A stretch of DNA of 64,000 nt, taken from the NCBI RefSeq assembly GCF_012927165.1, contig NZ_JABBGA010000002.1, forward strand, positions 1 through 64,000. Reading direction: 5' to 3'. The position numbers and the translations under genes are program-made. This document shows, piece after piece, positions 17,172 to 53,223 of the stretch (its first letter is position 1; each line of letters opens with the position of its first letter). A model generated the notes under the pieces. The model did no database searches, was not told the origin of the DNA, and was given only the letters and a program-made list of their open reading frames with translations. This DNA comes from Zoogloea dura. Its GTDB lineage: Bacteria; Pseudomonadota; Gammaproteobacteria; Burkholderiales; Rhodocyclaceae.

Positions 17172-17176
17172 CGGAC

Positions 17177-22826: not shown

Positions 22827-22829
22827 GGT

Positions 22830-23815: not shown

Positions 23816-23819
23816 GGCG

Positions 23820-24203: not shown

Positions 24204-24222
24204 GATTCTCTGCGGGTTACAT

Positions 24223-24267
24223 GGGAGAGCAGTGCCGGGGCAGCGCCAGCCGCCCCGGCACCCTCCC
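24223..24267 (-). terminator. Strong hairpin between DUF1501 and cytochrome genes (operon A)
   Basis: GTGCCGGGGC (24232-24241) pairs with GCCCCGGCAC (24252-24261), extended by GGGAG (24223-24227) with CTCCC (24263-24267). No T tract follows on the coding strand, so it is more likely an mRNA stabiliser or partial terminator separating the first two genes from the rest. Confidence 0.5.
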
Positions 24268-24269
24268 GG

Positions 24270-25715
24270 TCAGGTGATGATTTCCTGGACCACGTCGCCG
24301 AAGACGGTGGTGGCCTTCTCCTGGCGGCCCTGGTACTGGAAGGTGAGCTTGCGGTGGTCCAGGCCCAGTTGATGCAGCAGGGTCGCCTGCAGGTCGTAGG
24401 TATCCACGATGCCGCTGGCGGCACGCAGGCCGATCTCGTCGGTGGCGCCGTGGGTGTAGCCGGCCTTGATGCCGCCGCCGGCCACCCAGGAGGTGAAGCC
24501 CCAGGGGTTGTGGTCACGCCCGTCGCCGGTCTGGCCGTAAGGCGTGCGGCCGAACTCGGAGGTCCACACCACCAGGGTGTCCTTGAGCAGGCCACGGGCT
24601 TCCAGGTCGGCGAGCAGGCCGGCGATCGGCTTGTCCACCAGCTTGGCCATGGTGCCGTGGTTCTTCTCGATATTGTTGTGGGCGTCCCAGTCCGGCAGGC
24701 TGTCGTCCGGGGAGCCGGAGATGACATGCACGAAGCGCACGCCCTTCTCGATCAGGCGGCGGGCGCGCAGCAGGTTGGTGCCGTATTCCACGGTGGACTT
24801 GTCGTCCAGGCCGTAGAGCTTCTTGGTGGCGTCGGTCTCCTTGGAGAGGTCCACCGCCTCGGGGGCGGACTTCTGCATGCGGTAGGCCAGGTCGTAGGAG
24901 CGCAGGCGGGCCTCCAGTTCGGTGTCCGCCGGGTAGCGCGCCGCGGTGCGCTGGTTGAGGTTCTTCAGCAGCTCCAGGGTGTTGCGCTGTTCCACGTCGG
25001 AGACGCCGGCCGGGCGATCCAGGTGCAGGATGGGGGAGTCGCCCTGACGGAAGGCCGTGCCCTGGTACACCGCGGGCAGGAAGCCGGAGCTCCAGATCAC
25101 CTGACCGCGGCCGCCGCCGCCGGTGCTGCGGCCGTTGGCCAGCACCACGAAGGCCGGCAGGTCGGGGTTGTTGGTGCCCAGGCCGTACTGGATCCACGAA
25201 CCCAGCGCCGGACGCCCCGGCACCAGGCCGCTGGTGTGCAGCTTGAGGGAGGCGATGACGTGGGTCGAACCTTCGGTCTTGCTGCCTTTCAGGAAGCAGA
25301 TCTTGTCGGCGTGCTGGGCCAGGTTGGGCACCAGGTCGGAGAACCAGGCGCCGCTCTCACCGTATTGTTTCCAGGTGCGCTTGGTGGCGTAGAGGGCCCC
25401 GACGCCGCCGTCGGTGGCGGTCTTCAGGTTCTTCGAGAAGGAGTCCGGCAGGGGCTGGCCGTGCAGCTTGACCAGCTCGGGCTTGTAGTCGAACAGGTCG
25501 AGGGTGGACGGTGCGCCGGCCATGTGCAGCCAGATCACGGCCTTGGCCTTGGCGGCGTGGTGGGGCTGCTTGGGGGCCAGCGGGTCCAGGTATTCCGCGG
25601 CCTGCACGGAGGAGATGAAGCCGCCGCCGGGCAGCAGGCCGCTGAAGGCGTAGGCGCCGATGCCATAGCCGGCATTGACGAGGAAGCGGCGACGGGCGTT
25701 CTGATCGATAGTCAT
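24270..25715 (-). CDS. DUF1501 protein, sulfatase/alkaline-phosphatase-like fold (copy A)
   Basis: 481 residues. A Tat signal (ARRRFLVNAGYGIGAYAFSG) starts the protein. Family motifs are VIWLHMAGAPSTLDLFDYKPE, VVWTSEFGRTPYGQTGDGRDH and NPWGFTSWVAGGGIKAGYTHG; these supply likely metal-ligand Asp and His residues of an alkaline-phosphatase-superfamily core. The enzymatic activity of DUF1501 proteins is not established. In Planctomycetes they are habitually encoded beside DUF1549/DUF1553 proteins, the same pairing as here (32-base gap to the upstream gene). The paralogue at 29995-31446 shares the architecture throughout. Confidence 0.9.
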   Translation of the reverse strand: MTIDQNARRRFLVNAGYGIGAYAFSGLLPGGGFISSVQAAEYLDPLAPKQPHHAAKAKAVIWLHMAGAPSTLDLFDYKPELVKLHGQPLPDSFSKNLKTATDGGVGALYATKRTWKQYGESGAWFSDLVPNLAQHADKICFLKGSKTEGSTHVIASLKLHTSGLVPGRPALGSWIQYGLGTNNPDLPAFVVLANGRSTGGGGRGQVIWSSGFLPAVYQGTAFRQGDSPILHLDRPAGVSDVEQRNTLELLKNLNQRTAARYPADTELEARLRSYDLAYRMQKSAPEAVDLSKETDATKKLYGLDDKSTVEYGTNLLRARRLIEKGVRFVHVISGSPDDSLPDWDAHNNIEKNHGTMAKLVDKPIAGLLADLEARGLLKDTLVVWTSEFGRTPYGQTGDGRDHNPWGFTSWVAGGGIKAGYTHGATDEIGLRAASGIVDTYDLQATLLHQLGLDHRKLTFQYQGRQEKATTVFGDVVQEIIT

Positions 25716-25747: not shown

Positions 25748-28216
25748 TTACAGGCGATACAGGAATTCGTTGGAGTTCACCACCGCGTGGACCAGCTCCA
25801 CGAAGGCAGCGCTGCGGGCGGGGTTGGCTTTGTCCTTGTGACCGGTGGCCTTGGCACCGCCGGCGCCTTCGCCGTCGTCATCCGTGGTCTTGGCGGCCTT
25901 GGCCTGCTGGGTGTCCAGGTAGGACAGCAGGGTGGCCCGCTCGAACTTGTCGGGGCTGCGGCCATACAGGGTCTTGAACAGGCCGTCGACCTTCTCCTTC
26001 ACCGCGCCGGCATCCTTGGCCCCCACCGGAGCCACCACCTTCTTGCCGGTGGCGAGCTGGTTGGCGACGACCTTCTCCTGCTTGTCCAGGAAGGCCAGCA
26101 GGCTGTCCTTCTCGGTCTTGTCCGGCGTGCGGCCGAAGGCGATCTGGTACAGGCGGTCGAGGCGCGCGGCCTCGCTCTCGCCGGCTTCGCGGATGACCCG
26201 GCCGGCCAGGGCCTTGGACCATTCGAAGACCAGGTCGCTGTTGGCCAGGGCCAGGGCCTGGGGTGCCGTGGTGGTCACCTCGCGGCGGCCATGCACCAGC
26301 TGGGGGTTGGCCCAGTCAAAGGTGTCGAGCAGCGGATAGGGCGTGTTGCGGCGGATGAAGATGTAGGCGCTGCGGCGATGCTGCTCGGCCAGGCTGTCGG
26401 AGACCTTCCAGGCGTTGCGGTTGTCGAAGTTGGCCGGCACCGGCGGGTACACCGAGGGGCCGCCCACCTTCTCTTCCAGCAGGCCGGCGGCGTACAGCAG
26501 CGAGTCGCGGATCTGCTCGGCGTCGAGACGCTGACGCGGGAAGTAGGCCAGCAGCTTGTTCTCGGGGTCGACGCTGACCAGCTCCTCGCGGTGGTCGGAG
26601 GACTGGCGGTAGACGCTGGACAGCAGGATTTCCTTCTGCAGCTTCTTCACGCTCCAGCCGTTCTTGACGAAGCTGTCGGCCAGGTAGTCGAGCAGGGCCG
26701 GATTGACCGGCTTCTGGCCCATCTTGCCGAAGTCGTTGACCGTGTCCACCAGGCCGCGGCCGAAGTACTGGTTCCACACGCGGTTGGCAAAGACCCGGGC
26801 GGTCAGCGGGTTGGACGGGCTGGCGATCCAGTTGGCGATGGCGGTGCGGCGGCCGGACGAGGTGGCCGTGGCCACGATCTTCGGTGCCTCGCCGCCGGAC
26901 AGGGCTGCCGGCAGGCCGGGCTGGACTTCATCCAGCTTGCGGTCGTAGATGCCCTTGAAGAGCACGTAGGTGGGCGGCGAGTCGTTGTGGCCCAGCTCGG
27001 TGGCGGTGGAGATGTTGCCCGGGTCCTTCGGCTTGAGCTCGTCGAACTTCTTCAGCTCGGCCACCACCTTCTCGTACTCCGCGTACTGGGTCTTGTCCTT
27101 CTCCTTCATCTGGTTGGCCGCGTTGCGGGTGCGGCCGGACATGGTCCACAGGTTGCGGTGGTAGATCCAGCGGTCGTAGGCGTTGCGTTCCTTCTCGGGC
27201 TTGTTGATGGACTCGCGGGTCTCCGGCACGAAGCCCAGCAGGCGGTCGGCCTCGGCCTTCTCGATATAGGGCTTGAGCAGGGCATCCTGCTTGGCGCGGA
27301 TGTCCTTGGTCGCCTCTTCCCACTTGGCCAGCTTGCTCGAGAACTCGCTCAGTTCCTTGCCGGACAGCGGGGTCACGTCGTCCCGGAAGCTGGTGTTCAC
27401 GAAGTAGGCCTGGAGCTGGTAGTACTCCTTCTGGGTGAACTTGTCGAACTTGTGGTTGTGGCACTGGGCGCAGTTGGCCGTGGTGGCCAGGAACACCGAG
27501 CTGACCGTGTCGGTCAGGTCGTTGGCGATCTCCTGCTTCTTCAGGTTCAGGTCGCGGGCGTTGATCTCGTCCGGGAAGTTGCGCAGGAAGCCGGTGGCCA
27601 CCAGGGCGTCCTTGCGCTCCGGCCACAGCTCGTCGCCGGCCAGTTGTTCCTTGATGAAGACGTCGTAGGGCTTGTCGGCGTTGAAGGCGTTGATCACGTA
27701 GTCGCGATAACGCCACATGTTGGGCCGGGTGCCGTCGGTGTTGTAGCCGTCGCTGTCGGCGTGGCGGGTCAGGTCGAGCCAGCGGCGGCCCCAGCGCTCG
27801 CCGTAGCGGGGCGAGGCGAGCAGGCGGTCCACCAGCTTTTCGTAGGCCTGGGGAGACTTGTCATTGACGAAGGCCTTGACCTCTTCCGGGGTCGGGATGA
27901 TGCCCCAGGTATCCAGGGTGACGCGGCGGATCAGGGTGGCGCGGTCGGCATCGGCGGAGGGCTTGATGCCCTTGGACTCCAGCTGGGCCAGGACCAGGGC
28001 GTCAATCGGCGAGCGCACCCACTTGGCGTCCTTGACGGCCGGGGTCGCCGGACGGGCCACCGGCTGATAGGCCCAGTGCTGCTGGCCCTGGGCGGCGCGG
28101 GCCGGCCTGGCCTCGCCGGCGTCGGAAGTTTCGGCGGCAACGACCGCCACGGACTCGAGGCCCATCACCCCGACAAGGCTCCAGACCACGGCCAGGTAGG
28201 CTGCTTTTCTCTTCAT
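25748..28216 (-). CDS. DUF1549/DUF1553 (PSCyt2/PSD1) protein with CxxCH motif (copy A)
   Basis: 822 residues from ATG 28216, preceded by a good ribosome binding site (GAAGGAG) and giving a signal peptide (about 1-28). DUF1549 occupies roughly 60-280, including IDALVLAQLESKGIKPS, RRWLDLTRHADSDGY and a heme-type CAQCH motif at about 249-253 followed by NHKFDKFTQKEYY. A central region is followed by DUF1553 (about 430-800; NPLTARVFANRVWNQYFGRG, RQRLDAEQIRDSLLYAAG). The family was named in Planctomycetes; its reaction is unknown and one c-type heme is plausible. It heads a nine-gene operon that ends at 19042. Confidence 0.9.
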   Translation of the reverse strand: MKRKAAYLAVVWSLVGVMGLESVAVVAAETSDAGEARPARAAQGQQHWAYQPVARPATPAVKDAKWVRSPIDALVLAQLESKGIKPSADADRATLIRRVTLDTWGIIPTPEEVKAFVNDKSPQAYEKLVDRLLASPRYGERWGRRWLDLTRHADSDGYNTDGTRPNMWRYRDYVINAFNADKPYDVFIKEQLAGDELWPERKDALVATGFLRNFPDEINARDLNLKKQEIANDLTDTVSSVFLATTANCAQCHNHKFDKFTQKEYYQLQAYFVNTSFRDDVTPLSGKELSEFSSKLAKWEEATKDIRAKQDALLKPYIEKAEADRLLGFVPETRESINKPEKERNAYDRWIYHRNLWTMSGRTRNAANQMKEKDKTQYAEYEKVVAELKKFDELKPKDPGNISTATELGHNDSPPTYVLFKGIYDRKLDEVQPGLPAALSGGEAPKIVATATSSGRRTAIANWIASPSNPLTARVFANRVWNQYFGRGLVDTVNDFGKMGQKPVNPALLDYLADSFVKNGWSVKKLQKEILLSSVYRQSSDHREELVSVDPENKLLAYFPRQRLDAEQIRDSLLYAAGLLEEKVGGPSVYPPVPANFDNRNAWKVSDSLAEQHRRSAYIFIRRNTPYPLLDTFDWANPQLVHGRREVTTTAPQALALANSDLVFEWSKALAGRVIREAGESEAARLDRLYQIAFGRTPDKTEKDSLLAFLDKQEKVVANQLATGKKVVAPVGAKDAGAVKEKVDGLFKTLYGRSPDKFERATLLSYLDTQQAKAAKTTDDDGEGAGGAKATGHKDKANPARSAAFVELVHAVVNSNEFLYRL

Positions 28217-28546
28217 CGTTTCAACTCCTTCAACTGCGGCCGGAGCCTCAGGGCCACGGCGCATCGAATCTGCATGCGGGTCAGCCGGTGCGAAAGGCGA
28301 CTCGGCTCGATGCTTACCACAGCAGAATCCATGCCGCCCACGGAAGAAGTCATAACAAGTGCATAACTTAAATCAGAAACAAATTTATTTATCAACCACT
28401 TAAAAATCACCGTCCATCAGGCACGGGGCACCCGCGGAGCCCCACCCGGGGGTGACCGGAGAGCAGCAGCTGTTGCCACGTCAGCACGCGCAGCAACGCC
28501 AATGCTGCACTGCCAACAGCGGGCCGACAGCACCGCACGGACGACC
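28217..28546. other. Intergenic region between the two paralogous operons
   Basis: 330 bases with no credible gene. It contains the weak sigma-54 match for operon A (28321-28336), an A+T-rich stretch at about 28350-28410, and a GC-rich segment with short inverted repeats next to the end of operon B (about 28430-28460). Confidence 0.6.
28321..28336 (-). promoter_or_regulatory. Weak sigma-54 promoter candidate for operon A
   Basis: On the minus strand CGGCATG-GATT-CTGCT fits TGGCACG-N4-TTGCW with three mismatches and the invariant GG-N10-GC spacing. It lies 105 bases before the ATG at 28216. It is weaker than the three other sites in this locus, and I would not call it without them. Confidence 0.4.
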
Positions 28547-29281
28547 TCAGGGTTGTGCCGCGAGGTAATCCGTGAGGGCGCGGAGCTCCTCATCGCTCAG
28601 CCCACGGGTCACCCGGTTCATGACACCGTCCCGGCTGTTGCGGCGCTCGCCGCTGCGCCAGTCGAGAAGCTGCTTCTCCAGGTAACGCCATTCCTGCCCG
28701 CCGATCCGTGGCGCAGCGGCCCCCAGTCCGGCGATGCCCTGCCCCGCCGGACCGTGGCAGGCGATGCAGGCATCCACTCCCCGGGCCGCGTCGCCGCTCT
28801 CGTACAGACGGCGCCCCAGCGGATTGCCCGCCGCCCCCTCTCCCTTCATCGGTTTTTGGCTGGCGAAGTAGGCGGCGATATCCAGGATGTCGGCCGGCTC
28901 CACGGTGCGCGCCATCAGGGTCATCACGTCATGTTTGCGGGCCCCGCTGCGGAAGTCGGCGATCTGCTTGACGATGTACTCCGCCGGCTGGCCGGCCAGC
29001 TTGGGATGGCGCCCCTCGGAGCTGGCGCTCTGGCCGAAGCCATGGCCATCCGCGCCGTGGCACTCCTGGCAGCGCTCCTCGTCCGACTTGCGCGCGCCCG
29101 CCACCGGATCACCCTTGAGCGGAAGGGCTGCGACCGGGGCCGGCCCCCCGGTCGCCTGCACCTTGCCCTTGGCCTTGACGGCCTGCCCCAGCACCGGCCC
29201 GGACAGACAGGCCACCAGCAGCATCAGGATCACACCTCCCCTCCCCCGGGACAGCCCCGGGGTCTTGCGCGACCAGAACAT
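28547..29281 (-). CDS. Diheme cytochrome c4-like protein (copy B)
   Basis: 244 residues. An N-terminal hydrophobic segment (about 16-33) is a signal peptide or anchor and is followed by a linker. Two cytochrome domains carry CQECH (71-75) and CIACH (172-176), each followed by c4-type motifs (HPKLAGQPAEYIVKQ, PRIGGQEWRYLEKQLLDW). It starts 13 bases after the peroxiredoxin stop and ends operon B. Compared with copy A it has a longer N-terminus, so the copies are old paralogues and not a fresh duplication. Confidence 0.9.
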   Translation of the reverse strand: MFWSRKTPGLSRGRGGVILMLLVACLSGPVLGQAVKAKGKVQATGGPAPVAALPLKGDPVAGARKSDEERCQECHGADGHGFGQSASSEGRHPKLAGQPAEYIVKQIADFRSGARKHDVMTLMARTVEPADILDIAAYFASQKPMKGEGAAGNPLGRRLYESGDAARGVDACIACHGPAGQGIAGLGAAAPRIGGQEWRYLEKQLLDWRSGERRNSRDGVMNRVTRGLSDEELRALTDYLAAQP

Positions 29282-29294
29282 CAGACGGCAAGCC

Positions 29295-29879
29295 TCAGCG
29301 TCGGGCGGACGCGAGACGCGTCACGGTTTCGAGGGCCTTCTCCACATTGGCAACCGGTGCCACACCGCCGATGGTGGCGGCGACCTTGCCGTCGGGCTTG
29401 ATCACGAAGCTGACCCGGTCCACCCGGCCATGGTCGATCTCTTCGCCCCGGGTGTCCTTGCGCCCGGCGGGGATGTCGCTGACCGCCAGATCGAAGGCGC
29501 GGGCGATCCTTCCGTCCGGGTCGGAGGCCACCGCCAGCTTGCCGGCGCAGAACTCGGGGTCGGCCGAGAAGGCATTGAGGCGCTTGATGCTGTCCAGCGA
29601 CACGCCGATCACGGTGGCGCCGGCCGCAGCAAACTTGTCGATGTTCTCGGCGAAGGTGTGGGCCTGCAGGTTGCAGCCGCCGGTGTAGGCGGACGGGTAG
29701 AAATACACCACCACCGGCCCCTTCTTCAGCGCCTCCCTGAAGGAATAGTTGAAGGCCTTGCCGGCCAGTGAGGCCTGGGCGGTGAACTCGGGCGCCTTGT
29801 CACCCTCGTTGAGGGCTGCATGGGCGGGGCTGGCCAGCACGGCCGACAGGAGCAGGCCGGGCAGGATGAGACGTTTCAT
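29295..29879 (-). CDS. Periplasmic peroxiredoxin (AhpC/TSA family, copy B)
   Basis: 194 residues from ATG 29879, which gives a signal peptide (MKRLILPGLLLSAVLASPAHA). The peroxidatic motif is PSAYTGGC and the candidate resolving Cys lies in DPEFCAGKLAVASD. Most of the protein matches copy A closely (QASLAGKAF, GPVVVYFYPSAY, GVAPVANVEKAL). It follows DUF1501 copy B after a 115-base gap with two strong hairpins, and unlike copy A it has no c'-like cytochrome neighbours. Confidence 0.88.
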   Translation of the reverse strand: MKRLILPGLLLSAVLASPAHAALNEGDKAPEFTAQASLAGKAFNYSFREALKKGPVVVYFYPSAYTGGCNLQAHTFAENIDKFAAAGATVIGVSLDSIKRLNAFSADPEFCAGKLAVASDPDGRIARAFDLAVSDIPAGRKDTRGEEIDHGRVDRVSFVIKPDGKVAATIGGVAPVANVEKALETVTRLASARR

Positions 29880-29917
29880 TCGGGCGGTCCCTTTATCAGG
29901 ATTTCTTGTGGGTCTGA

Positions 29918-29984
29918 CAGCCGCGCGCGGCGCGGCTGCTCTCTGTGGGTCTGCAGGCTGCGCCCCCGGACGGGGAGCGCAGCC
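29918..29984 (-). terminator. Two strong hairpins between DUF1501 and peroxiredoxin genes (operon B)
   Basis: First hairpin: CAGCCGCGC (29918-29926) pairs with GCGCGGCTG (29930-29938). Second: GGCTGCGCCCCC (29956-29967) pairs with GGGG (29972-29975) and GCGCAGCC (29977-29984) around a GGAC loop. Neither has a T tract. They occupy the same place as the hairpin in operon A and probably act in mRNA processing or partial termination. Confidence 0.5.
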
Positions 29985-29994
29985 CACGCCCGGA

Positions 29995-31446
29995 TCAGGC
30001 CAGCAGTTCCTTGACGACCTTGCCGTACACCACCGTCGGGCGCTCGGAGCGGCCGTTGTTGATGAAGGTGGTCTTGAGGTGGTCGAGGCCCAGCAGGTGC
30101 AGCACGGTGGCATGCAGGTCGTAGGTATCCACGGCCTTGTCCTTGTCGGCCACCTGCACGCCCAGCTCATCGGTCTCGCCGTAGGTGAAGCCGGCCTTGA
30201 CGCCGCCGCCGGCGACCCACTGGGTGTAGCCCCACGGGTTGTGGTCGCGGCCGGTGCCGCTTTCGCCCCACGGCGTGCGGGAGAACTCGGAGGCCCACAC
30301 CACCAGGGTCGAGTCGAGCAGACCCAGGGTCTTCAGGTCGGCCAGCAGGCCGGCGATGGGCTTGTCCACCATGCGCGCCTGGGTGGCGTGGTTGCCGTCG
30401 AGGTCGCTGTGGGCATCCCAGCTGCGGCGTTCCTGGTCAGACACGTTGCCGGGATAGCCGGACACCACCTGCACGAAGCGGACGCCCCGCTCCACCAGGC
30501 GACGGGCCCGCAGCAGCACCTTGCCGTAGCTCTCGCTGGTCGGATCATCGATGCCGTAGAGCTTGAGGGTGGCCTCGGACTCCTTGGACAGATCCACCGC
30601 CTCCGGCGCCGCCCGCTGCATGCGGTCGGCCAGCTCGTAGGACTCGAGGCGGGCGCGCAGCTCGGTGTCCGCCGGCCGGCGATCGCCGCCCAGCCGGTTG
30701 AGCTGCTTGAGCAGGTCCAGCGAGGCCCGCTGTTGGTCGGCCGAACGCAGCTCCGGGCGCTCCAGGTAGAGGATGGGCGAATCGCTGGGGCGGAAAGCGG
30801 TGCCCTGATACACCGCCGGCAGGAAGCCGGAGCTCCAGTTCACCGAGCCGGCGCTGGGCTCCTGCTCGCCGTTGTACAGCACCACATAGGACGGCAGATC
30901 CGGGTTCAACGAGCCGAGTGCGTAATTCACCCAGGCGCCCAGGGACGGACGGCCCGGATTCAGGTCGCCGGTGTTGAGCTTGAGGATCGAGATGTCGTGG
31001 GTCGCCCCCACCGTCACGCTGGACTTGATGAAGGCGATCTTGTCCGCCTGCTGGGCCAGGTTGGGCAGCAGGTTGGAGAACCACGCCCCACTCTCGCCGT
31101 ATTGCTTGAAGGTCCGCTGGTTGGAATAGAACAGCTTGTTCACGCCGCCCTGGGTGGAGGTCTTGATGCCCTTCAGGAAGGACGCCGGCACCGGCTGGCC
31201 GGCCAGCTTGGCCAGCTCCGGCTTGTAGTCATACAGGTCGATGGTGGAAGGCGCGCCGTTCTGGTGGAGCCAGATCACGGATTTCACCTTGCCCGGGAAA
31301 TGCGGCTGCTTGGGCGCCAGGGGGTCGAGCAAATCGGCGGCCGTGGCGGCATTGATATAGCCCAGCCCCGGGATGAAGCCGTTCGCGGCGACGGCCCCCA
31401 CACCCAGCCCGGCTTTGAGAAGAAAGTCTCGACGATTGATACTCAT
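29995..31446 (-). CDS. DUF1501 protein, sulfatase/alkaline-phosphatase-like fold (copy B)
   Basis: 483 residues. The N-terminus is Tat-like but with a single basic pair (INRRDFLLKAGLGVGAVAANG). Motifs match copy A: VIWLHQNGAPSTIDLYDYKPE, VVWASEFSRTPWGESGTGRDH and NPWGYTQWVAGGGVKAGFTYG. It lies 35 bases downstream of DUF1549/DUF1553 copy B. Presumed periplasmic and presumed metal-dependent hydrolase fold; the reaction is unknown. Keeping both paralogues complete suggests different substrates or conditions. Confidence 0.9.
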   Translation of the reverse strand: MSINRRDFLLKAGLGVGAVAANGFIPGLGYINAATAADLLDPLAPKQPHFPGKVKSVIWLHQNGAPSTIDLYDYKPELAKLAGQPVPASFLKGIKTSTQGGVNKLFYSNQRTFKQYGESGAWFSNLLPNLAQQADKIAFIKSSVTVGATHDISILKLNTGDLNPGRPSLGAWVNYALGSLNPDLPSYVVLYNGEQEPSAGSVNWSSGFLPAVYQGTAFRPSDSPILYLERPELRSADQQRASLDLLKQLNRLGGDRRPADTELRARLESYELADRMQRAAPEAVDLSKESEATLKLYGIDDPTSESYGKVLLRARRLVERGVRFVQVVSGYPGNVSDQERRSWDAHSDLDGNHATQARMVDKPIAGLLADLKTLGLLDSTLVVWASEFSRTPWGESGTGRDHNPWGYTQWVAGGGVKAGFTYGETDELGVQVADKDKAVDTYDLHATVLHLLGLDHLKTTFINNGRSERPTVVYGKVVKELLA

Positions 31447-31481
31447 GATGTTTTTTCCTTATTTCGAGTAATTGGGGTTGG

Positions 31482-33812
31482 TCAGAAGCGGTAAGCGAAA
31501 TCGCTGGAATTGGCGACGGTGTGCACCAGATCCACGAAGGCCGCGCCGCGCACCGGATTGATGACGGACGGATCCTTCAGGCCGCTCGGCACGGCGGCCT
31601 CGAATTTGCCGGCGGCAACCTTCTTCTGGACCACGCCTTCTTCCTTCGCCAGGAAGGCCTTCAGCGCGGCCTTTTCGGTCTTGTTCGGCTCACGGGCAAA
31701 GAGGATCTGGTACAGGCGGCTCAATTGGGCGGACTCGTCCTTGCCGGCTTCGTTGATGATCCGGCCGGCCAGGGCCTGCGACCAATTCACCACGATGTCG
31801 CTGTTGAACAGGGTCAGGGCCTGCAGCGGCGTGGTGGTCACGTCACGCTTGTGATGCGCCTGGGAAGGATTGGCCGGGTCGAAGTTCTGCAGCAGCGGGT
31901 AAGGCAGGCTGCGACGGCTGAAGATGTAGATGCTGCGACGATTCCAGTCGGCCTTGTCCTTGGAGACGGTCCATTGACGGTTGCCGTCGAAGTCGGCCTG
32001 GCCGTTCTCCAGCACCTTGGCGATCGGCGGGAACACCGAGGGACCACCGACCACGTCGGTCAGCTGGCCTGACGCATACAGCAGCGCATCGCGGATCTCC
32101 TCGGCCTCGAGGCGTTTGCGCGGATAGACCGCCAGCAGCTCGTTCTTCGGATCCACCTTGACCACGTCCTGGCGCTCGTCGGAAGCCTGGCGATAGACGC
32201 TGGAGAGCAGGATCTCGCGCTGCAGTTTCTTCACGCTCCAGCCATTCTTGACGAAGTTGCCGGCCAGGTAGTCGAGCAGCTCGGGGTGGGTCGGCTTCTC
32301 GCCGGCACGGCCGAAGTCAGCCGGCGTACCGACGATGCCCTTGTCGAAGTACTGGCTCCACACCCGGTTCACATACACGCGCGCCGTCAGCGGATTGTTG
32401 GCGCTGGCCAGCCAGCCGGCCAGCGCCGAACGGCGGCCGGAGGAATTGGCGGTGGGCGTGATGCTGACCTTGTCACCTCCCCACAGGGCGGGAATCCCCG
32501 GCTGGACTTCCTCGGTGGGACGCTCGTGGATACCGCCGAAACGCACGAAGGTCGGCGGCGAATCCGTACCCAGTTCAACTGCAGTGGTGATATTGACCGA
32601 GCCGCTCAAGGGACGCAGGTTATCGAACTTGCGCAATTCGGCCTGCAGCTTCTGGTATTCCTTCCAGGCGGTGATGCGGTCGGGCGTATGGTCGGCGTGA
32701 TCCTTGTTCTCGGCGGTCAGGCGCAGATAACCGGCGGTGTCGGTGTCCGGATTGAAGACGCTCTTGTGGCGGAAGTTCACCCAGCGATCGAGCGCATTCC
32801 ATTCCTTCTCGGGCTTGAAGATCGACTCGCGGCTGTCGGTCAGGTAGCGCTCTTTCTGGTATTTGATGCCGGCTTCCTTATAGGGCGCCAGCACGGCCGC
32901 CTGCTTGTCGCGGATTTCCTTGGTCGCTTCGCGATACTTGGCCTGCTGCTCGGCGAATTTCTTGTCCCATGCCGTCTCGGTTCCCTTGTCCAGCGCACGG
33001 CGCTGGTCGAAGGCGGTATTGGCGAAGAAGGCCTGGAGCTGGAAGTATTCCTTCTGGCTCAGCTTGTCCGATTTATGGTTGTGGCAGCGGGCGCAACCGG
33101 TGGTGGACGCCAGGAAGGTCTCACCGATGGTGTCGGTGATGTCGGTGGTGATCTGGTATTTGCGCTGCACCAGGTCGCGGGAATTGGCGTTATCCGGATA
33201 GCCGCCCAGGAAGCCGGTGGCGATCCTGGCCTCCTGGCTTTCGGGCCACAGTTCATCGCCCGCCACCTGCTCCTTGATGAAGCGGTCAAAGGGCTTGTCT
33301 TCATTGAAGGCCTTGATCACGTAATCGCGATAGCGCCAGTTGTTCGGGCGGGTGGCATCGTTCTGGAAGCCGGAGCTGTCCGCATAACGGGCCAGGTCCA
33401 GCCAGCGGCGGGCCTGGCGCTCGCCGAAGTGATGGGAGGCCAGCAGGCGGTCCACCAGTTTCTCGTAGGCATTCGGGGACTTGTCATCGACGAAGGCCTT
33501 GACCTCCTCCGGCGTCGGCAGCAGGCCCCAGGCATCCAGGGTGGCGCGCCGGATGAAGGTGGAGCGGTCGGCTTCCGGCGACGGCTTGATGCCCTTCTCT
33601 TCCAGGCGGGCCAGCACGAAGGCGTCGATCGGGGTACGCACCCATTTACCCTGCTTCACGGCCGGCAATTCCGGCGCCTTCACCGGCTGATAGGCCCAGC
33701 CATTCGGCACCGCAGCTTTGGCCGCCGCGGGCTTGCTGTCCGTTTCCGCACCAATGACCGATGACGTCACCGCCAGCATCACCGCGATATACACACCTTT
33801 TCTGACAAGCAT
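31482..33812 (-). CDS. DUF1549/DUF1553 (PSCyt2/PSD1) protein with CxxCH motif (copy B)
   Basis: 776 residues from ATG 33812, which gives a signal peptide (MLVRKGVYIAVMLAVTSSV) ending near residue 22. It is collinear with copy A: IDAFVLARLEEKGIKPS, RRWLDLARYADSSGF, a heme-type CARCH at about 240-244 followed by NHKSDKLSQKEYF, then DUF1553 with NPLTARVYVNRVWSQYFDKG and RKRLEAEEIRDALLYASG. It lacks the Ala/Gly-rich insert near the C-terminus of copy A (about residues 780-800). It heads operon B, 155 bases from a strong sigma-54 promoter match. Confidence 0.9.
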   Translation of the reverse strand: MLVRKGVYIAVMLAVTSSVIGAETDSKPAAAKAAVPNGWAYQPVKAPELPAVKQGKWVRTPIDAFVLARLEEKGIKPSPEADRSTFIRRATLDAWGLLPTPEEVKAFVDDKSPNAYEKLVDRLLASHHFGERQARRWLDLARYADSSGFQNDATRPNNWRYRDYVIKAFNEDKPFDRFIKEQVAGDELWPESQEARIATGFLGGYPDNANSRDLVQRKYQITTDITDTIGETFLASTTGCARCHNHKSDKLSQKEYFQLQAFFANTAFDQRRALDKGTETAWDKKFAEQQAKYREATKEIRDKQAAVLAPYKEAGIKYQKERYLTDSRESIFKPEKEWNALDRWVNFRHKSVFNPDTDTAGYLRLTAENKDHADHTPDRITAWKEYQKLQAELRKFDNLRPLSGSVNITTAVELGTDSPPTFVRFGGIHERPTEEVQPGIPALWGGDKVSITPTANSSGRRSALAGWLASANNPLTARVYVNRVWSQYFDKGIVGTPADFGRAGEKPTHPELLDYLAGNFVKNGWSVKKLQREILLSSVYRQASDERQDVVKVDPKNELLAVYPRKRLEAEEIRDALLYASGQLTDVVGGPSVFPPIAKVLENGQADFDGNRQWTVSKDKADWNRRSIYIFSRRSLPYPLLQNFDPANPSQAHHKRDVTTTPLQALTLFNSDIVVNWSQALAGRIINEAGKDESAQLSRLYQILFAREPNKTEKAALKAFLAKEEGVVQKKVAAGKFEAAVPSGLKDPSVINPVRGAAFVDLVHTVANSSDFAYRF

Positions 33813-33966
33813 CAACTGACTCCCTGAAACACGATTGATCAGGCTTCCTTTCCGCCCCCCGACAAGGGCCGGCAAATTCCACCATTCCATGGCAAAACAA
33901 AAAGCAATCCGGGCAGCCCGCCCCTCCCGGAGACCAGGGAGCGGACAGGTACAGCGTCATACCTTT

Positions 33967-33982
33967 CGCAGCTATCGTGCCA
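33967..33982 (-). promoter_or_regulatory. Sigma-54 promoter for operon B
   Basis: On the minus strand TGGCACG-ATAG-CTGCG has a perfect -24 element and a -12 element keeping TGC, with exact GG-N10-GC spacing. It lies 155 bases upstream of the DUF1549/DUF1553 start codon at 33812, implying a leader of about 140 bases. Confidence 0.7.
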
Positions 33983-34400
33983 GCCCCTCCAAAACCCAAA
34001 AAAACACAAACTAATCCAACGATTTCATCGACTTAACAATTATCACCGGCAACCTGGCGCCGCCAGCCCGATTGCACGCCAGCAAACACCATGCTGCACC
34101 GCGTGCAGGGCAGCGGACCATTCTGCTGATCAGCCCGCAAACCTGCTGTCCAGCCATCAAACCCGCCATTTCCTATTCACCCGCTCATTTCCTGGTCAAT
34201 AGATTCGTCAACCCCGACGTCATGTTCAATTCTGTTCACAGCGCAATCAGGATTGAACGCAACCCACCACCCATCCGGAATCACATATGAATTTCCGAAT
34301 TTGAATATATACCTTGATTGCAAAGTGGTTTCTCCGGAGACAGGCATCGCGGAATTCCGAATAGCGCCGAAAATCGCACACTCCGGATCCGGATAAGCCA

Positions 34401-34416
34401 TGGCACGCCTGATGCT
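34401..34416 (+). promoter_or_regulatory. Sigma-54 promoter for TonB receptor 1
   Basis: TGGCACG-CCTG-ATGCT has a perfect -24 element and one mismatch in the -12 element (ATGCT for TTGCW), with exact GG-N10-GC spacing. The expected transcription start is about 34427, giving a 30-base leader before the ATG at 34458. Confidence 0.75.
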
Positions 34417-34457
34417 ATTCAGGACAACACCCGTTTTGTTCCTCGACCAGAAAAGCC

Positions 34458-37301
34458 ATGACCTCCATCCGAAAAGAAAACAAGCGTTCAGCCCGCCCCT
34501 TCCGCATTCGGCCCATTTCAATTCTCGTAGCCGGCCTTGCCCTCGGCGCGTCCGGCGCCATGCACGCGCAGGAATCCCGGTCGGCGGCCGAACTGCAGGC
34601 CGACCTGCAGAAGGCCAATGCAGAAATCCAGAACCTGAAACGTGAACTGGAACGGAGCCGCGGCAATACGCCTGCACCGACCGCCACCCAGGTGCCGGCC
34701 GCGGCCCGGGAAGAGATCGTGGAGACGGCCCCTGCCACCCAGACCCTCGACTCGGTGGTGGTGCGCAGCCGGCGCCAGCTCGAGAAGCTCCACGACGTGC
34801 CGGTGTCCATTTCGGTTGTCTCCGGCAGCGAACTGGCCCGGGAGCAGGCCTCCGACTTCGAGGCCATCACCAAGCGCCTCGGCAACATCACCTTCAACCA
34901 GAACAACACCCGCGGCTCGTCCCTGTCGGTCCGCGGGCTGGGCCGCCGCGGTTTCACCGAGACCCAGGATCCCAGCGTCGGCCTGATCGTCGACGGTGTC
35001 CCCTACGGGCTCGCCCAGCTCGGCAATTTCGACTTCTATGACGTGCAGTCGGTGGAAGTGGCCCGCGGCCCCCAGGGGACGCTGCAGGGCAAGGGCGCCA
35101 GTGCCGGTGCCATCACCATCAACAGCAAGGGGCCATCCTTCGCCCCCAGCGCCGACCTGGAGCTCACCTACGGCCAGCGCGAGACCGTACTGCTGAAGGG
35201 CGCCCTCGGCGGCCCGATCGTCGACGATCTGCTGGCATGGCGCGGTTCATTCGTGGTCAATAACCAGCGCGGTTACTACACGGTGGGCGACGATACCGGC
35301 AAGGAACTGGACACCATGTACAACCGCAACCGGGTCAGCGCCCGCACCCAGTTCCTGCTGACGCCCTCGGCGGACTTCAACGCCAAGCTGAGCCTGGACA
35401 TCCAGCCCCGCGCCGCCCAACTGCAGAACGGCCTGACCAACTTCACCGAAGTCCCCCTGCGCTACGCCAATGGCAGCCTGGTGGACCCCAGCGGCACCGG
35501 CAGCCGCTCGCGCCTGAATCGCAGCTGGTTCGCCAACCGCAGCTTCAACTACAACACCTTCATCAACAGCGTGGTGCGTGACGGCCGGGTCTACCAGAAC
35601 GAGACCCAGGGCCAGCTCGCTTCCAGCAACGGGGCGGTGGCGGAGCTCAACTACAACCTCAATGACACCCACACGCTGACCTCCATCACCGGCTTCCGCC
35701 AATACAGCTTCCAGGCCCGCAACGACGAAGGTACCCCTTTCGACATCAGCAAGCTGGGCGGCGGCAGCGTCTTCTACAACCAGACCACCCAGGAAGTCCG
35801 CCTCACCGGCAAGCCCAGCAAGCTCGTGGACTACCAGACCGGCCTGTTCCTGATGCGCACCGAGGACGAGATCGAGTCCCGCTCCAGCTACGGTGCCGAT
35901 GCCGGAGCCTGGTTTGCCAACAACGCCCAGTACGCCACCCTGGTGGGCAGCGCCGGCACCAACGTCGGCGCCGGCCGCTCGCTGGCCACCGATGCCCTGA
36001 GCGGCCTCTACAAATGGGGCGAGCAGTACGTCAAGACCTTCAGCAAGGCGATCTACGGCCAGGCCAACCTCCACCTCACCGACAACCTGACCGTCACCGC
36101 CGGCCTGCGCATCGGCACCGAGGCCCGCTCCACCACCCAGCTCAACAGCCTGCGCAACCTGGGCTACGGCGCGGCGCTCAACCCGGTCTCGGTGCGGGTG
36201 GACGGCAGCGGCGGCAGCACCTCCCTGGGCGGCTTCAACTCGGTGGCCTACACCACGGCCAACGTGGCCAACGGTACCGCCGGCAACCTGGTCGGCAGCA
36301 ACAGCGCCGCCCAGCTGGCCCAGGCCAACTCGATCGCACAGAAGTATTACGGTGTTGCCACCTATGCCGAGCTGAGCGCCGCCCAGAAGGCCCAGGTGGC
36401 CGCCGCCAAGGCCGTCCGCGCCTCGCAGATCGGCACCCTGGTCAACCAGGTGCGCAGCGACTACAAGGATCAGCTGCACTCCGCGGTACTGAGCCCGAAG
36501 TACAGGATCAACGACGACATCACCGCCTACGCCAGCTGGCAGTACGGCGAGAAGTCGGGCGCCGCCCTGGTGGTGAACGGCATCCCCACCACCGTCAAGC
36601 CGGAGCGCACCAACGCCTATGAACTGGGCGTCAAGACCTTCCTGCTCAACAAGACCCTGACCCTCAATGCCGATGTCTTCCTGATGGACATCAAGAACTA
36701 CCAGCAGACGGTGGTCGCGGTGGATGACTTCGCCACCCAGGACAACATCCGGAACGGCATCGCCAACCCCACGGCCTACACCAGCATCCAGGGCAACGTG
36801 GCCAAGGTGCAGGTGTCCGGTGTCGAAGTGGACGCCGCCTACAACGGCATCCCCTTCACCAGCTTCCGGGTGGCGGCGTCCTACAACGACGCCCGCTACA
36901 AGGACTTCAAGAACGCCGGCAAGCCGTCGGAGCTGGCCTACCTGTCCAATCCCTTCATCGACCGCAGCGGCGACCGCTTGGGCGAGGCCCCCTTCTGGAC
37001 GGCCAACCTCAGCGGCGAATACCGGAGGCCGGTGCTGGGTGACAAGGTCTTCCACGCCAGCTTCACCACCGCCTACATCGGCAAGACCAACACCGATGAA
37101 CTGATCTCCAGCTACGCCTGGGTGCCGGACCACGCCACCACCGACCTGGCCATCGGGCTGGGCCATCACAAGGGCAGTTACGACGTGACCTTTGTCGCCA
37201 AGAACGCGTTCAACGACACCGCCCATGAGAAGGGCTGGGCCAGCTACACGCCCTACCCCTACCCCCGCTGGTACGGCATCGTCTTCAGCGGCCGGCTCTG
37301 A
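34458..37301 (+). CDS. TonB-dependent outer-membrane receptor 1, with N-terminal coiled coil
   Basis: 947 residues. A signal peptide (about 20-37, cut after MHA) is followed by an unusual short coiled coil (SAAELQADLQKANAEIQNLK, about 41-65) and a Pro/Thr linker. A TonB-box-like TLDSVVVRS lies near 95, followed by the plug domain (VPVSISVVSGSEL, LSVRGLGRRGF, VEVARGPQGTLQGKGASAGA) and a long beta-barrel ending in the C-terminal strand PRWYGIVFSGRL with a terminal-Leu signature. Such receptors import scarce, large or poorly diffusing ligands using TonB energy. No siderophore gene lies nearby; the flanking oxidase and hydrolase genes argue for an organic substrate (inference). Confidence 0.93.
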   Translation: MTSIRKENKRSARPFRIRPISILVAGLALGASGAMHAQESRSAAELQADLQKANAEIQNLKRELERSRGNTPAPTATQVPAAAREEIVETAPATQTLDSVVVRSRRQLEKLHDVPVSISVVSGSELAREQASDFEAITKRLGNITFNQNNTRGSSLSVRGLGRRGFTETQDPSVGLIVDGVPYGLAQLGNFDFYDVQSVEVARGPQGTLQGKGASAGAITINSKGPSFAPSADLELTYGQRETVLLKGALGGPIVDDLLAWRGSFVVNNQRGYYTVGDDTGKELDTMYNRNRVSARTQFLLTPSADFNAKLSLDIQPRAAQLQNGLTNFTEVPLRYANGSLVDPSGTGSRSRLNRSWFANRSFNYNTFINSVVRDGRVYQNETQGQLASSNGAVAELNYNLNDTHTLTSITGFRQYSFQARNDEGTPFDISKLGGGSVFYNQTTQEVRLTGKPSKLVDYQTGLFLMRTEDEIESRSSYGADAGAWFANNAQYATLVGSAGTNVGAGRSLATDALSGLYKWGEQYVKTFSKAIYGQANLHLTDNLTVTAGLRIGTEARSTTQLNSLRNLGYGAALNPVSVRVDGSGGSTSLGGFNSVAYTTANVANGTAGNLVGSNSAAQLAQANSIAQKYYGVATYAELSAAQKAQVAAAKAVRASQIGTLVNQVRSDYKDQLHSAVLSPKYRINDDITAYASWQYGEKSGAALVVNGIPTTVKPERTNAYELGVKTFLLNKTLTLNADVFLMDIKNYQQTVVAVDDFATQDNIRNGIANPTAYTSIQGNVAKVQVSGVEVDAAYNGIPFTSFRVAASYNDARYKDFKNAGKPSELAYLSNPFIDRSGDRLGEAPFWTANLSGEYRRPVLGDKVFHASFTTAYIGKTNTDELISSYAWVPDHATTDLAIGLGHHKGSYDVTFVAKNAFNDTAHEKGWASYTPYPYPRWYGIVFSGRL

Positions 37302-37317
37302 GCTTCACCTGCAGGCC

Positions 37318-37341
37318 GATCCGCCCCGCCCGGGGCGGATC
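37318..37341 (+). terminator. Hairpin after TonB receptor 1
   Basis: GATCCGCCCC (37318-37327) pairs perfectly with GGGGCGGATC (37332-37341) around a GCCC loop, 16 bases after the stop codon. There is no T tract, so termination may be partial. Confidence 0.6.
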
Positions 37342-37465
37342 GCTGCGGCGCATCAAACAGTCTGCCCCCGCAACTGCTGCGAGGGCAGCAGCCCGGCCCG
37401 CAGCGGATGTCCGGCGGCTCCGCCACGGCCGCATGCCATCCGCCTGAACAGGCGCCGGGGCTCAC

Positions 37466-37508
37466 CGGAACCTTTTCCGAACATCCTGTTTTGGCAGGGA
37501 ATAATTCC
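37466..37508. promoter_or_regulatory. Candidate activator-binding repeats upstream of TonB receptor 2
   Basis: Inverted repeats CGGAA-CCTT-TTCCG (37466-37479) and GGAAT-A-ATTCC (37498-37508) lie 45-90 bases upstream of the sigma-54 site. Related half-sites occur upstream of receptor 1 (34276-34297 and 34350-34359), with TTCCGAAT-like words at both loci. Spacing between half-sites varies, so a single regulator is only a possibility. Confidence 0.35.
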
Positions 37509-37553
37509 TCCGAATAAGAAATCCTGAAATCCGTATAAGCCTTTCCGGGGGCG

Positions 37554-37569
37554 TGGCATGGGGATTGCC
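37554..37569 (+). promoter_or_regulatory. Sigma-54 promoter for TonB receptor 2
   Basis: TGGCATG-GGGA-TTGCC matches TGGCACG-N4-TTGCW with two mismatches and exact GG-N10-GC spacing. The predicted start near 37580 gives a leader of about 27 bases that contains the AGGAAAG ribosome binding site before ATG 37608. Leader length matches that of receptor 1. Confidence 0.7.
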
Positions 37570-37607: not shown

Positions 37608-40421
37608 ATGAGCCACAAAAATACCCATCGGGCGGTCCGCCAGACCCGCACCCATGAAGCCCGCCAGTTTCGTCTGAGCCCCTTCGCCGCCGCCGTGGCG
37701 ACCGTCGCCCTCCTTGCTGCGGGTGGCGTCCAGGCCCAGGAAAAATCCGCCGCCGAACTGCAGGCCGAAGTGGCCCGCCTGAGACAGGCCCTCGACCAGG
37801 CCCAGCAGGACCTGGCCCGCAAGCAGGGCACCCCGGTGCCTGCCGCCACCCAGGCCGAACCCGCCACAGCCACCGCGGCAGCGCCGGAAGAGGCCGTGGC
37901 CCTCGACTCCGTGGTGATCCGCTCGCGCAACCGCATCGAGCGCCTGCAGGACGTCCCCCTGTCGGTCTCCGTGGTCACCGGCCGCGAGCTCGACCGCACC
38001 GGCGCCGATGACATCAAGTCGATCAGCCAGCGTCTCGGCAACATCTCCTGGAACCAGGGCAACCAGCGCACCTCCAGCCTGTCCATCCGCGGCATCGGCA
38101 AGCAGAGCCAGACCGAAGCCCAGGACCCCAGCGTCGGCGTGATCGTGGACGGCGTTAACTACGCCTACAACGCCCTCACCTCCAGCTTCAACTACCACGA
38201 CATCGAGGCCGTCGAAGTCACCCGTGGCCCCCAGGGCACCCTGCTCGGCAAGAACACCAGCCTGGGCGTCATCAACATCACCACCCGCAAGCCCTCCTTC
38301 ACCCCCAGCGCCGACTACTCGCTGACCCTCGGCCAGAACGACCGGGTGATCGGCAAGCTCGCCGCCGGCGGCCCGATCGTGGACGACCTGCTGGCCTGGC
38401 GCGGCGCCTTCGTGGTGGACCGCGGCGAGGGCGACATCCGCAACCTGGACAACCGGGACCAGAGCTACCAGAACATCGACCGCGTCTCCGGCCGCGTGCA
38501 GTTCCTGCTGACCCCCAGCGCCGACTTCAACGCCCGCCTGGCGCTCGAGCTGCAACCGCGTGCCGGCGAATACACCAACGGCCGCACCATCAACACCCCG
38601 ACGCCGACCCGCTACTCCAACGGCTCCACCAACGCCCTCGGCACCGACGCCTCGACCCGCCTCGGCCGCTCCTGGTTCACCCAGCAGGGCAACTACAGCT
38701 ACGCCCGCGACTACCTCTATGGCGGCGGCCGCAACTCGGTCAATGTGGACACCGCACGTCCCCTCGTCACCGGCAGCCGCGGCGCCTCGCTGGAGCTGAA
38801 CTGGAACGTCGGCAACCACACCCTGACCTCCATCACCGCCTACAAGGACTATCACTTCAATGCGGTGAACGACGAAGGCACGCCCTTCGACATCCAGCGC
38901 AATTCGGGCGGCTTCTGGAACGACTACTCCCAGCGCAGCCAGGAACTGCGGCTCAGCTCCAAGACCGGCGGCTTCGTGGACTACCAGGCCGGTCTGTACG
39001 TCATCAACGTCAGCAACAGCTCCGAGTACCAGCGGGAATGGGGTAACGATGCCGGCGCCTGGTTCGCCAGCACCGCCCAGTACAACCGCCTCAACACCAG
39101 CTCCGCCGGCCAGCTGCTGATGCAGAACTCGCTGGACCGTCTGAGCATGGCCTACAACTCGCCGACCGGCCTGCAGAGCATCAAGAACAAGAGCTCCGCG
39201 CTCTTCGCCCAGGCCAACTGGCACCTCAGCGAGCCGCTGACCCTCACCACCGGCATCCGCCTGACCCGCGAGGACCGCAGCAACGTCGGCTCCAGCTTCG
39301 TCCGCGACTACGGCAACGGCACCGAACTCAACCCGGTCGCCGTCAATGGCGTGCAGCTGGGCGGCTTCGCCTCCAACAGCTCCGGCGTGCTGGGCGCCAG
39401 CAACTCCGCCGCCCAGCTGTCGGTGGCCGACAAGGTGGCCAACAAGTACTTCGGCGTGGCCATCAACCCGAACAACCCGGGTGCCGCCTACGCCAGCCTG
39501 ACCGCCGACCAGAAGCGCCAGGTGGCCGACGCCAAGGCCATCCGCGCCTCGCAGATGGGCGTGCTGTTCAACCAGACCAAGGCCGAATCCTTCCGCGACA
39601 CCCAGCCGGCCTTCGTGGTCAGCCCGTCCTACAAGTTCAACCCCAACCAGACCGGCTACATCTCCTGGCAGTACGGTGAGAAGGCCGGGATCTCCCAGCT
39701 CACCAACGGCTACTCCAACCTGGTCAAGGCCGAAAAGACCAACTCCTTCGAGGTGGGCCTGAAGTCCGCCCTGCTCGACAAGACCCTGATCCTCAACTCG
39801 GCCCTCTACCTGACCAAGATCCGCGACTACCAGCAGTCGGTGCGCGTACTCGACCAATACACCACCAACCTCAACGCCGACGGCACCAACTACTACACCG
39901 CGGCCACCGGCAACGTGCCCAAGGTGGAAGCCAAGGGCATCGAGGTGGATGGCGTGTATGCCGGCATCCGCAACATCACCGTCCGCTTCGCCGGCGCCTA
40001 CAACGACGCCAAGTACAAGGACTTCCCCAACGCCGCCCTGCCCAACGAAGACAACTACAGCGGCGCCCCGGCCTACAAGGACCTGACCGGCAAGACCCTG
40101 CCCGGCGCCTCCAAGTGGACCTTCAACATCGGTGCCGACTATCGCAAGCCGGCCTTCGGCGACAAGGAGTTCCACGCCAGCTTCAACACCGCCTACTACA
40201 GCCGCTTCAACTCCGACAATTCGCTGTCCAGCTATGCCTGGATCCCGGACTACAGCACCACCGACCTGGCCATCGGCCTGGGCAAGCTGGACAAATCCTA
40301 CGACGTGAGCCTGCTGGTCAAGAACGCCTTCGGCGACAGCACGCCCGTGTCCAAGAGCTGGAACAGCTACGGCCCCGCCGTGCCCCGCTGGGTCGGCGTG
40401 ATGTTCACCGGGAAGCTCTGA
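37608..40421 (+). CDS. TonB-dependent outer-membrane receptor 2, with N-terminal coiled coil
   Basis: 937 residues. The signal peptide ends near residue 43 (GGVQAQ). A short coiled coil (SAAELQAEVARLRQALDQAQ, about 46-75), an Ala/Pro linker and a TonB-box-like ALDSVVIRSRN precede the plug (VPLSVSVVTGREL, LSIRGIGKQSQT, VEVTRGPQGTLLGKNTSLGV) and barrel (terminal strand PRWVGVMFTGKL). It is paralogous to receptor 1 along its whole length, including matching barrel segments (GPIVDDLLAWRG, FLLTPSADFNA, NDEGTPFDI, ISWQYGEK). It has its own sigma-54 promoter and a strong terminator, so the two receptors can be expressed separately. Confidence 0.93.
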   Translation: MSHKNTHRAVRQTRTHEARQFRLSPFAAAVATVALLAAGGVQAQEKSAAELQAEVARLRQALDQAQQDLARKQGTPVPAATQAEPATATAAAPEEAVALDSVVIRSRNRIERLQDVPLSVSVVTGRELDRTGADDIKSISQRLGNISWNQGNQRTSSLSIRGIGKQSQTEAQDPSVGVIVDGVNYAYNALTSSFNYHDIEAVEVTRGPQGTLLGKNTSLGVINITTRKPSFTPSADYSLTLGQNDRVIGKLAAGGPIVDDLLAWRGAFVVDRGEGDIRNLDNRDQSYQNIDRVSGRVQFLLTPSADFNARLALELQPRAGEYTNGRTINTPTPTRYSNGSTNALGTDASTRLGRSWFTQQGNYSYARDYLYGGGRNSVNVDTARPLVTGSRGASLELNWNVGNHTLTSITAYKDYHFNAVNDEGTPFDIQRNSGGFWNDYSQRSQELRLSSKTGGFVDYQAGLYVINVSNSSEYQREWGNDAGAWFASTAQYNRLNTSSAGQLLMQNSLDRLSMAYNSPTGLQSIKNKSSALFAQANWHLSEPLTLTTGIRLTREDRSNVGSSFVRDYGNGTELNPVAVNGVQLGGFASNSSGVLGASNSAAQLSVADKVANKYFGVAINPNNPGAAYASLTADQKRQVADAKAIRASQMGVLFNQTKAESFRDTQPAFVVSPSYKFNPNQTGYISWQYGEKAGISQLTNGYSNLVKAEKTNSFEVGLKSALLDKTLILNSALYLTKIRDYQQSVRVLDQYTTNLNADGTNYYTAATGNVPKVEAKGIEVDGVYAGIRNITVRFAGAYNDAKYKDFPNAALPNEDNYSGAPAYKDLTGKTLPGASKWTFNIGADYRKPAFGDKEFHASFNTAYYSRFNSDNSLSSYAWIPDYSTTDLAIGLGKLDKSYDVSLLVKNAFGDSTPVSKSWNSYGPAVPRWVGVMFTGKL

Positions 40422-41307: not shown

Positions 41308-41358
41308 CCCCGCCCCCACTCCGCCGGCTCCACGGAGCCGGCCACTGAGGAATCCCGC

Positions 41359-43572: not shown

Positions 43573-43578
43573 CACCCG

Positions 43579-53064: not shown

Positions 53065-53122
53065 ACTGAAGGTCATCGACTTGCGTCGCCAACCCATAAA
53101 ACTAATTATACCAAATTTTGAG

Positions 53123-53196
53123 CCTGCCCGACAGGAATCGAACCTGTAACCCCCGGCTTAGAAGGCCGGTGCTCTATCCAGTTGAGCTACGGGCAG
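53123..53196 (-). tRNA. tRNA-Arg (anticodon TCT)
   Basis: Minus-strand cloverleaf with acceptor CTGCCCG/CGGGCAG, anticodon stem-loop CCGGCCTTCTAAGCCGG and T-loop GGTTCGATTCC. CCA is not encoded. Middle gene of the operon. Confidence 0.95.
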
Positions 53197-53223
53197 ATTG
53201 CCGCGGGCATCGGGGTAAAGCCT

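Follow-up and report, generated by a model that had tools for sequence, protein, structure and literature searches.

Putative sigma-54 promoters link TonB-dependent receptors and DUF1549/DUF1501 operons of Zoogloea dura to a candidate SfnR-like activator

The window analysed here, a 64,000-nucleotide stretch at the start of contig C12, belongs to a Zoogloea dura genome of 5.83 Mb in 83 contigs. Two copies of a gene set encoding a DUF1549/DUF1553 protein, a DUF1501 protein, a redoxin and a cytochrome c face left at the locus, and two TonB-dependent receptor genes face right:

22197..25715, minus strand: operon A genes for DUF1501 (24270-25715), redoxin (23237-23881) and cytochrome c (22197-22826)
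25748..28216, minus strand: operon A DUF1549/DUF1553 protein (Pfam)
28547..29879, minus strand: operon B genes for redoxin (29295-29879) and two-haem cytochrome c (28547-29281)
29995..31446, minus strand: operon B DUF1501 protein (Pfam)
31482..33812, minus strand: operon B DUF1549/DUF1553 protein (Pfam), CARCH motif present
34458..37301, plus strand: TonB-dependent receptor 1, 947 aa (Pfam plug and barrel)
37608..40421, plus strand: TonB-dependent receptor 2, 937 aa (Pfam plug and barrel)
40615..44217, plus strand: genes that follow receptor 2, encoding a 230-aa conserved protein, a DsbD-like protein (41359-43572) and a redoxin (43579-44217); no promoter of their own was found

Both gene sets carry PF07583 and PF07587 beside PF07394, all scoring above cut-off. 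The same Pfam domains are adjacent in the "planctomycete-specific" pairs of DUF1549/DUF1553 (PSCyt2-PSD1) and DUF1501 proteins, whereas the locus described here is proteobacterial and is accompanied by TonB receptors and putative sigma-54 promoters. According to PMC5615132, these gene sets have no known function. Of 199 family genomes, 9 contain a homologue of DUF1501 and 12 a homologue of receptor 1; the closest DUF1501 among named genomes is that of Zoogloea sp. isolate SB3 (100%). Wider comparisons were made across 80 named loci, mostly from beta- and gammaproteobacteria, a subset retained from a larger set.

Several other features of the window were recorded. The 230-aa protein (40615-41307) has no Pfam match and a weak LenF-like match, and is 60-87% identical across many loci. 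A MoCoBD (molybdopterin-binding) gene at 19435-21873, downstream of operon A, is also present at Zoogloea loci L097-L101 and L148. Positions 1-1140 hold a 387-bp tandem repeat (2.9 copies, 98%), covered on the plus strand by a 3240-aa open reading frame without a Pfam match that looks like the shadow of a large minus-strand repeat protein; OEP and HlyD-type genes (16362-18727) adjoin this large repeat protein region (1-16000). A histidine kinase with several PAS domains is encoded at 53118-56351, and no link between it and the regulon was found.

The initial annotation proposed four sigma-54-type sites with exact GG-N10-GC spacing, and all four 16-mers were found in place:

28321..28336, minus strand: weaker putative sigma-54 promoter of operon A, CGGCATGGATTCTGCT (window rank 20)
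33967..33982, minus strand: putative sigma-54 promoter of operon B, TGGCACGATAGCTGCG (window rank 8)
34401..34416, plus strand: putative sigma-54 promoter of TonB receptor 1, TGGCACGCCTGATGCT (window rank 1, the best match)
37554..37569, plus strand: putative sigma-54 promoter of TonB receptor 2, TGGCATGGGGATTGCC (window rank 3; counterparts in L084 and L085)

Transcription from sigma-54 promoters starts 12 bases past the GC. By this rule, the predicted leaders are approximately 31 nt for receptor 1 and 28 nt for receptor 2, and 144 nt and 94 nt for the operons that begin at 33812 and 28216, respectively, near the short receptor leaders and longer operon leaders first described. Sites were scored with a sigma-54 matrix of approximate values, and the scores vary by some tenths because two background compositions were used across scripts.

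The four sites had also been called rare by chance, which held only in part for the bare sites. The intergenic DNA of the locus (1281 bases, 2% of the window) contains three of the top 8 and four of the top 20 sites (binomial P of approximately 4e-4 and 6e-4, respectively, for stretches picked after the claim was known). Matches to the sigma-54 consensus with up to two mismatches were not enriched in the window (8 compared with a shuffle mean of 13.7), and coding sequence holds similar or higher scores. For example, the second-best sigma-54-like site (45956-45971, 14.4 bits) is intragenic, in a gene of the MscS type; position 45692 has a sequence resembling the element described below, and the match is probably due to chance. 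Genome-wide, 79 one-mismatch sites were found compared with 39 for the reversed pattern, and many such matches are therefore due to chance. Because coding matches exist and the pattern is no commoner than in shuffled sequence, the score is insufficient alone. Equal or better random matches in coding sequence had been named as grounds for rejecting the sites; this applies in part to the bare sites, but conservation in relatives supports the sites at the locus, and they were accepted because of it.

Upstream of DUF1549, a forward site of at least 12 bits was present in 70 of 89 loci (median 14.7), a count that takes in near-duplicates and two cut-off loci (L152 and L164). On the reverse strand, the same threshold was reached in 21 of 89 (median 7.5), and some of these sites serve divergent genes. 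Forward sites scored above all 40 of their own shuffles in 48 of the 89 loci, and reversed sites did so in 15. Upstream of the TonB receptors, 36 of 43 regions had a site of at least 12 bits, compared with 8 of 43 for the reversed control; this count covers L095-L174 only, after removal of 12 near-duplicates, of weak or N-terminally cut receptor matches and of those too close to the locus end. Five Methylococcales loci (L160, L167, L168, L171 and L174) have a site before the receptor and none before DUF1549. The weaker site at 28321 is conserved in seven of eight Zoogloea loci, including the window: it is identical in L084, L085, L099 and L100, takes the closely similar form CGGCACGGAATCTGCT in L097 and L148, and is absent from L095. 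These footprints across genera support the view that the sites are sigma-54 promoters facing these genes, and they are probably real switches that tie the two operons and two receptors to one activator encoded elsewhere.

A second conserved element, TGYTG-N6-CARCA, was found further upstream. Exact copies occur in the 300 bases that precede the DUF1549 promoter in 33 of 60 promoter regions and are absent from the other 27; the 60 regions are those left after removal of 14 near-duplicates and then of 15 of 75 loci without an 11-bit sigma-54 site. Over the same regions the reversed pattern was never found, and dinucleotide shuffles gave a mean of 0.15 and a maximum of 1. The centre of the element lies 92-258 bases from the T of the -24 box (45 copies). 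Among the receptor upstream regions, 23 of 43 have an exact copy inside 500 bases. The half-sites were also seen at a spacing of N9 in 17 of 60 regions, far above other spacings except N6, and this arrangement was noted at G000:C13:16976 as well; N3 occurred in 7 of 60, and each remaining spacing from N0 to N13 in at most two. The window contains three exact copies, compared with 0.36 expected, and none of 100 shuffles reached three; they are listed here together with two one-mismatch copies:

28471..28486, unstranded: exact element upstream of operon A, kept in all eight Zoogloea loci
28503..28518, unstranded: another exact element before operon A, at a distance of 32 bp from the 28471 copy
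34124..34139, unstranded: element with one mismatch, located between the divergent operon B and receptor 1; exact at this place in L084 and L085
34144..34159, unstranded: one-mismatch element in the divergent region, 20 bp from the 34124 copy
37375..37390, unstranded: exact element upstream of TonB receptor 2

The operon A pair and its 32-bp distance are kept in 8 of 8 Zoogloea loci. Pairs 20 or 31-32 bp apart occur in the window and at contig 13 promoters, distances that would be expected of activator dimers on a single face of the DNA. We regard this 16-bp sequence as a candidate activator site. Its matrix was derived from exact sites of these same loci, so element-matrix scores are not independent of them. 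The proposal that the genes form one regulon gains support from the common element, exact before receptor 2 and operon A, and from the two one-mismatch copies between operon B and receptor 1; this divergent region has no exact copy, and one-mismatch copies show no excess over chance across the window.

Pairing of the element with a sigma-54 site was also assessed. Of the 54 exact elements in the genome, 46 were examined, and five had a sigma-54 site of at least 12 bits inside 30-230 bp, compared with 1.4% of 3000 random places. By the element matrix, four pairs lie in the window (one of them, at 45956, intragenic) and five in 40 kb of contig 13. Another four were found in a 346-kb comparison set, which was picked for activators or elements and is biased towards matches.

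The genome has one RpoN match and 26 strong matches to AAA+ activators, and all 26 lie elsewhere than in the window, as the initial annotation had supposed. One of them, L184 (G000:C13:37598-38725), is a 376-aa AAA+ sigma-54 activator (PF00158 match) with a short N terminus that lacks a sensor domain, a visible GAFTGA motif and a C-terminal helix-turn-helix named by eye. In relatives, an activator lies within the fetched flank of 17 of 80 named loci. Sixteen of the 17 locus-linked activators grouped with L184, the sole own activator among them, in a clade with 100/100 support (L128 supplied two of the tree proteins and L156 none); the exception was L128_19510. In 16 of 80 named loci, a relative of L184 is encoded next to DUF1549. 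When 24 of the 26 own activators were put in a second tree, L184 was once more the only one of them in the clade.

Co-occurrence was consistent with this linkage. An L184-type activator was found in 23 of 199 family genomes: in eight of the nine that have this DUF1501 and in 15 of the 190 that do not (Fisher P = 7.8e-8, uncorrected for kinship). The sole exception among the nine is G111, where the locus is present and the activator was not found. In the closed genomes G086 and G026, the activator lies approximately 20 kb from DUF1501. We consider L184 on contig 13 the strongest candidate activator for the regulon.

An exbB-exbD-exbD-tonB operon diverges from the L184 gene (ExbB was checked by Pfam; ExbD, TonB and some others were named by eye). 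Between the two lie an exact element (C13:38764) and a strong one-mismatch sigma-54 site (C13:38865). Among 17 other activator regions retrieved, six (L301-L306) have exb genes next to the activator; in the other 11, none were found within the fetched stretch. At the equivalent exb position, sigma-54-like sites score 10.4 bits in L303, 10.4 in L304 and 12.9 in L305; sites before tonB score 13.4 in L302 and 12.5 in L301, and the maximum in L306 is 9.5.

An operon for SMP-30-like and DLH-like proteins (C13:17232-19162), with a sigma-54 site at 17159 and element-like sequences approximately 150 bp further upstream, is a likely further member; among the 80 named loci, DUF1549 has homologues of these two genes as neighbours in 33 and 23, respectively. 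Weaker candidates, on C13 and C40, are two RND-type operons, a class-II amidotransferase gene and a metallo-beta-lactamase-fold gene. At C13:7682-7800, a pair of elements with a distance of 32 bp and a sigma-54 site of 15.3 bits precede a class-II glutamine amidotransferase gene, a candidate that was not expected in the regulon. Paralogues of the receptors at other places in G094 and G190 (L092, L093 and L094) have strong sigma-54 sites of 14.9-15.9 bits, and the regulon may therefore include more receptors. The fliD gene on C12 (L234), one of the five exact elements with a sigma-54 site, was set aside as a chance match or another activator's target because its element falls within the last part of the preceding gene and fliD itself is flagellar.

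SfnR of Pseudomonas is reported to be linked to organosulfur use or sulfur starvation (PMC8234197, PMC10256816 and PMC12581299). The SfnR, SfnR1 and SfnR2 proteins, which control the use of dimethyl sulfone and methanesulfonate through the sfn and msu genes, are, like L184, sigma-54 activators without a sensor. Expression of SfnR is reported to depend on CysB and sulfate starvation. The L184 clade also includes a G334 protein encoded approximately 5 kb from a true sfnG, and the loci of relatives are linked to sulfonate-type ABC genes. At other true sfnG regions, the G242 activator falls outside the clade and no activator was found in G383; in the G334 sfnG region, no TGYTG-N6-CARCA element was found. 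By its clade, in a tree that holds no named Pseudomonas SfnR, L184 is a candidate SfnR-like protein. Its predicted targets differ from those of the SfnR regulons, being TonB receptors, ExbBD-TonB and DUF1549/DUF1501 operons in a genome with no match to sfnG (TIGR04021).

From the sites, their conservation, the element and the clade linkage, each of which can be read in the sequence, we infer how binding, activation, signal and substrate might fit together. L184 would bind single or paired TGYTG-N6-CARCA sites approximately 90-260 bp upstream of the promoters and open sigma-54 polymerase at the two receptors and the two DUF1549/DUF1501 operons, and likewise at the exbB-exbD-exbD-tonB operon adjoining its own gene. 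Because L184 lacks a sensor domain, it would act through its own expression level, probably under sulfur limitation. Together, the gene products would make up a dedicated system for uptake across the outer membrane and for redox or hydrolysis reactions in the periplasm, which would scavenge an organic compound, likely a sulfur-bearing one. To this reading, one sigma-54 regulon with the contig 13 SfnR-like activator serving an uptake and redox system probably under sulfur limitation, we assign a probability of roughly 0.7.

The sulfur step, meaning both a sulfur-limitation signal and a sulfur-bearing substrate, is held at near even odds. The SfnR-like activator and the gene neighbours together suggest sulfur scavenging across the outer membrane. 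Among the 80 named loci, SsuA/SsuC-like ABC genes occur in 19 (matches below curated cut-offs), a rhodanese-like gene in 43, cytochrome c' in 46, cytochrome b561 in 34, a metallo-beta-lactamase-fold protein in 16 and a small protein with a CRTCH-type C terminus in 78. It is a serious possibility, somewhat below even odds, that the regulon and activator are as proposed but that signal and substrate are something else. Iron, haem, a different metal or a carbon source, for example, could enter by the TonB system and be handled in the periplasm by the cytochrome and the SMP-30-like and DLH-like proteins. Iron is often the cargo of TonB systems; the NCBIfam families that best match the receptors are those of siderophore and haem receptors, although no match reaches its cut-off; genes for cytochromes and cytochrome maturation are common neighbours of the locus; and sfnG is missing from the genome. 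A non-sulfur role fits less well with the clade that L184 shares with an sfnG-linked activator and with the sulfonate-type ABC and rhodanese-like genes that are common near the locus.

A PDB profile search with DUF1501 had a best match at E = 0.023, and no match was found in a PDB sequence search with DUF1549. AlphaFold models were poor for both (pLDDT 42.5 from 9 sequences for DUF1501 and 50.0 from 11 sequences for DUF1549). A Foldseek search with the low-confidence DUF1501 model gave nothing significant (best E = 0.11); its six best rows are, by name, what we take to be members of the alkaline phosphatase superfamily. DUF1501 may belong to the alkaline phosphatase/sulfatase superfamily. Sulfur-controlled systems that combine TonB-dependent uptake with a sulfatase-type enzyme are known, and the locus resembles them in having a receptor and a periplasmic enzyme possibly of the sulfatase superfamily, but the link between DUF1501 and sulfatases is weak here (E = 0.023 and a low-confidence model).

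Another of the 26 activators might drive these promoters, the contig 13 link then being mere neighbourhood. The tree covered 24 of the 26, and binding of the element by an activator is itself a prediction, but 16 of 17 locus-linked activators fall in one clade with a single own member, the element is present at the promoter adjoining the L184 gene, and activator and DUF1501 co-occur across genomes; we consider this explanation unlikely. Least probable, and very unlikely, is that the sites match by chance and that another sigma factor transcribes the genes: the pattern is unenriched across the window and the genome-wide excess over the reversed pattern leaves room for many chance matches, but the sites are conserved at the same place and on the same strand in many genera, and a search of the divergent region for sigma-70-type sites gave none, with 0.4 expected.

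No literature linking SfnR or sigma-54 with DUF1501 or DUF1549 was found in a search that left most subscription papers outside its reach. More generally, and at a little less than even odds, the DUF1549/DUF1553-DUF1501 pair, which is common in planctomycetes, could be the periplasmic core of TonB-fed organosulfur scavenging; in proteobacteria, an SfnR-like activator that recognises an upstream-site code of its own would run the system, with ExbBD-TonB as a co-regulated energiser. For a pair of proteins without an assigned function, the analysis provides a candidate for the activator, a 16-bp candidate for its binding site and a set of putatively co-regulated genes. If the proposed regulon is correct, SfnR-type control would reach beyond flavin monooxygenases to uptake across the outer membrane.
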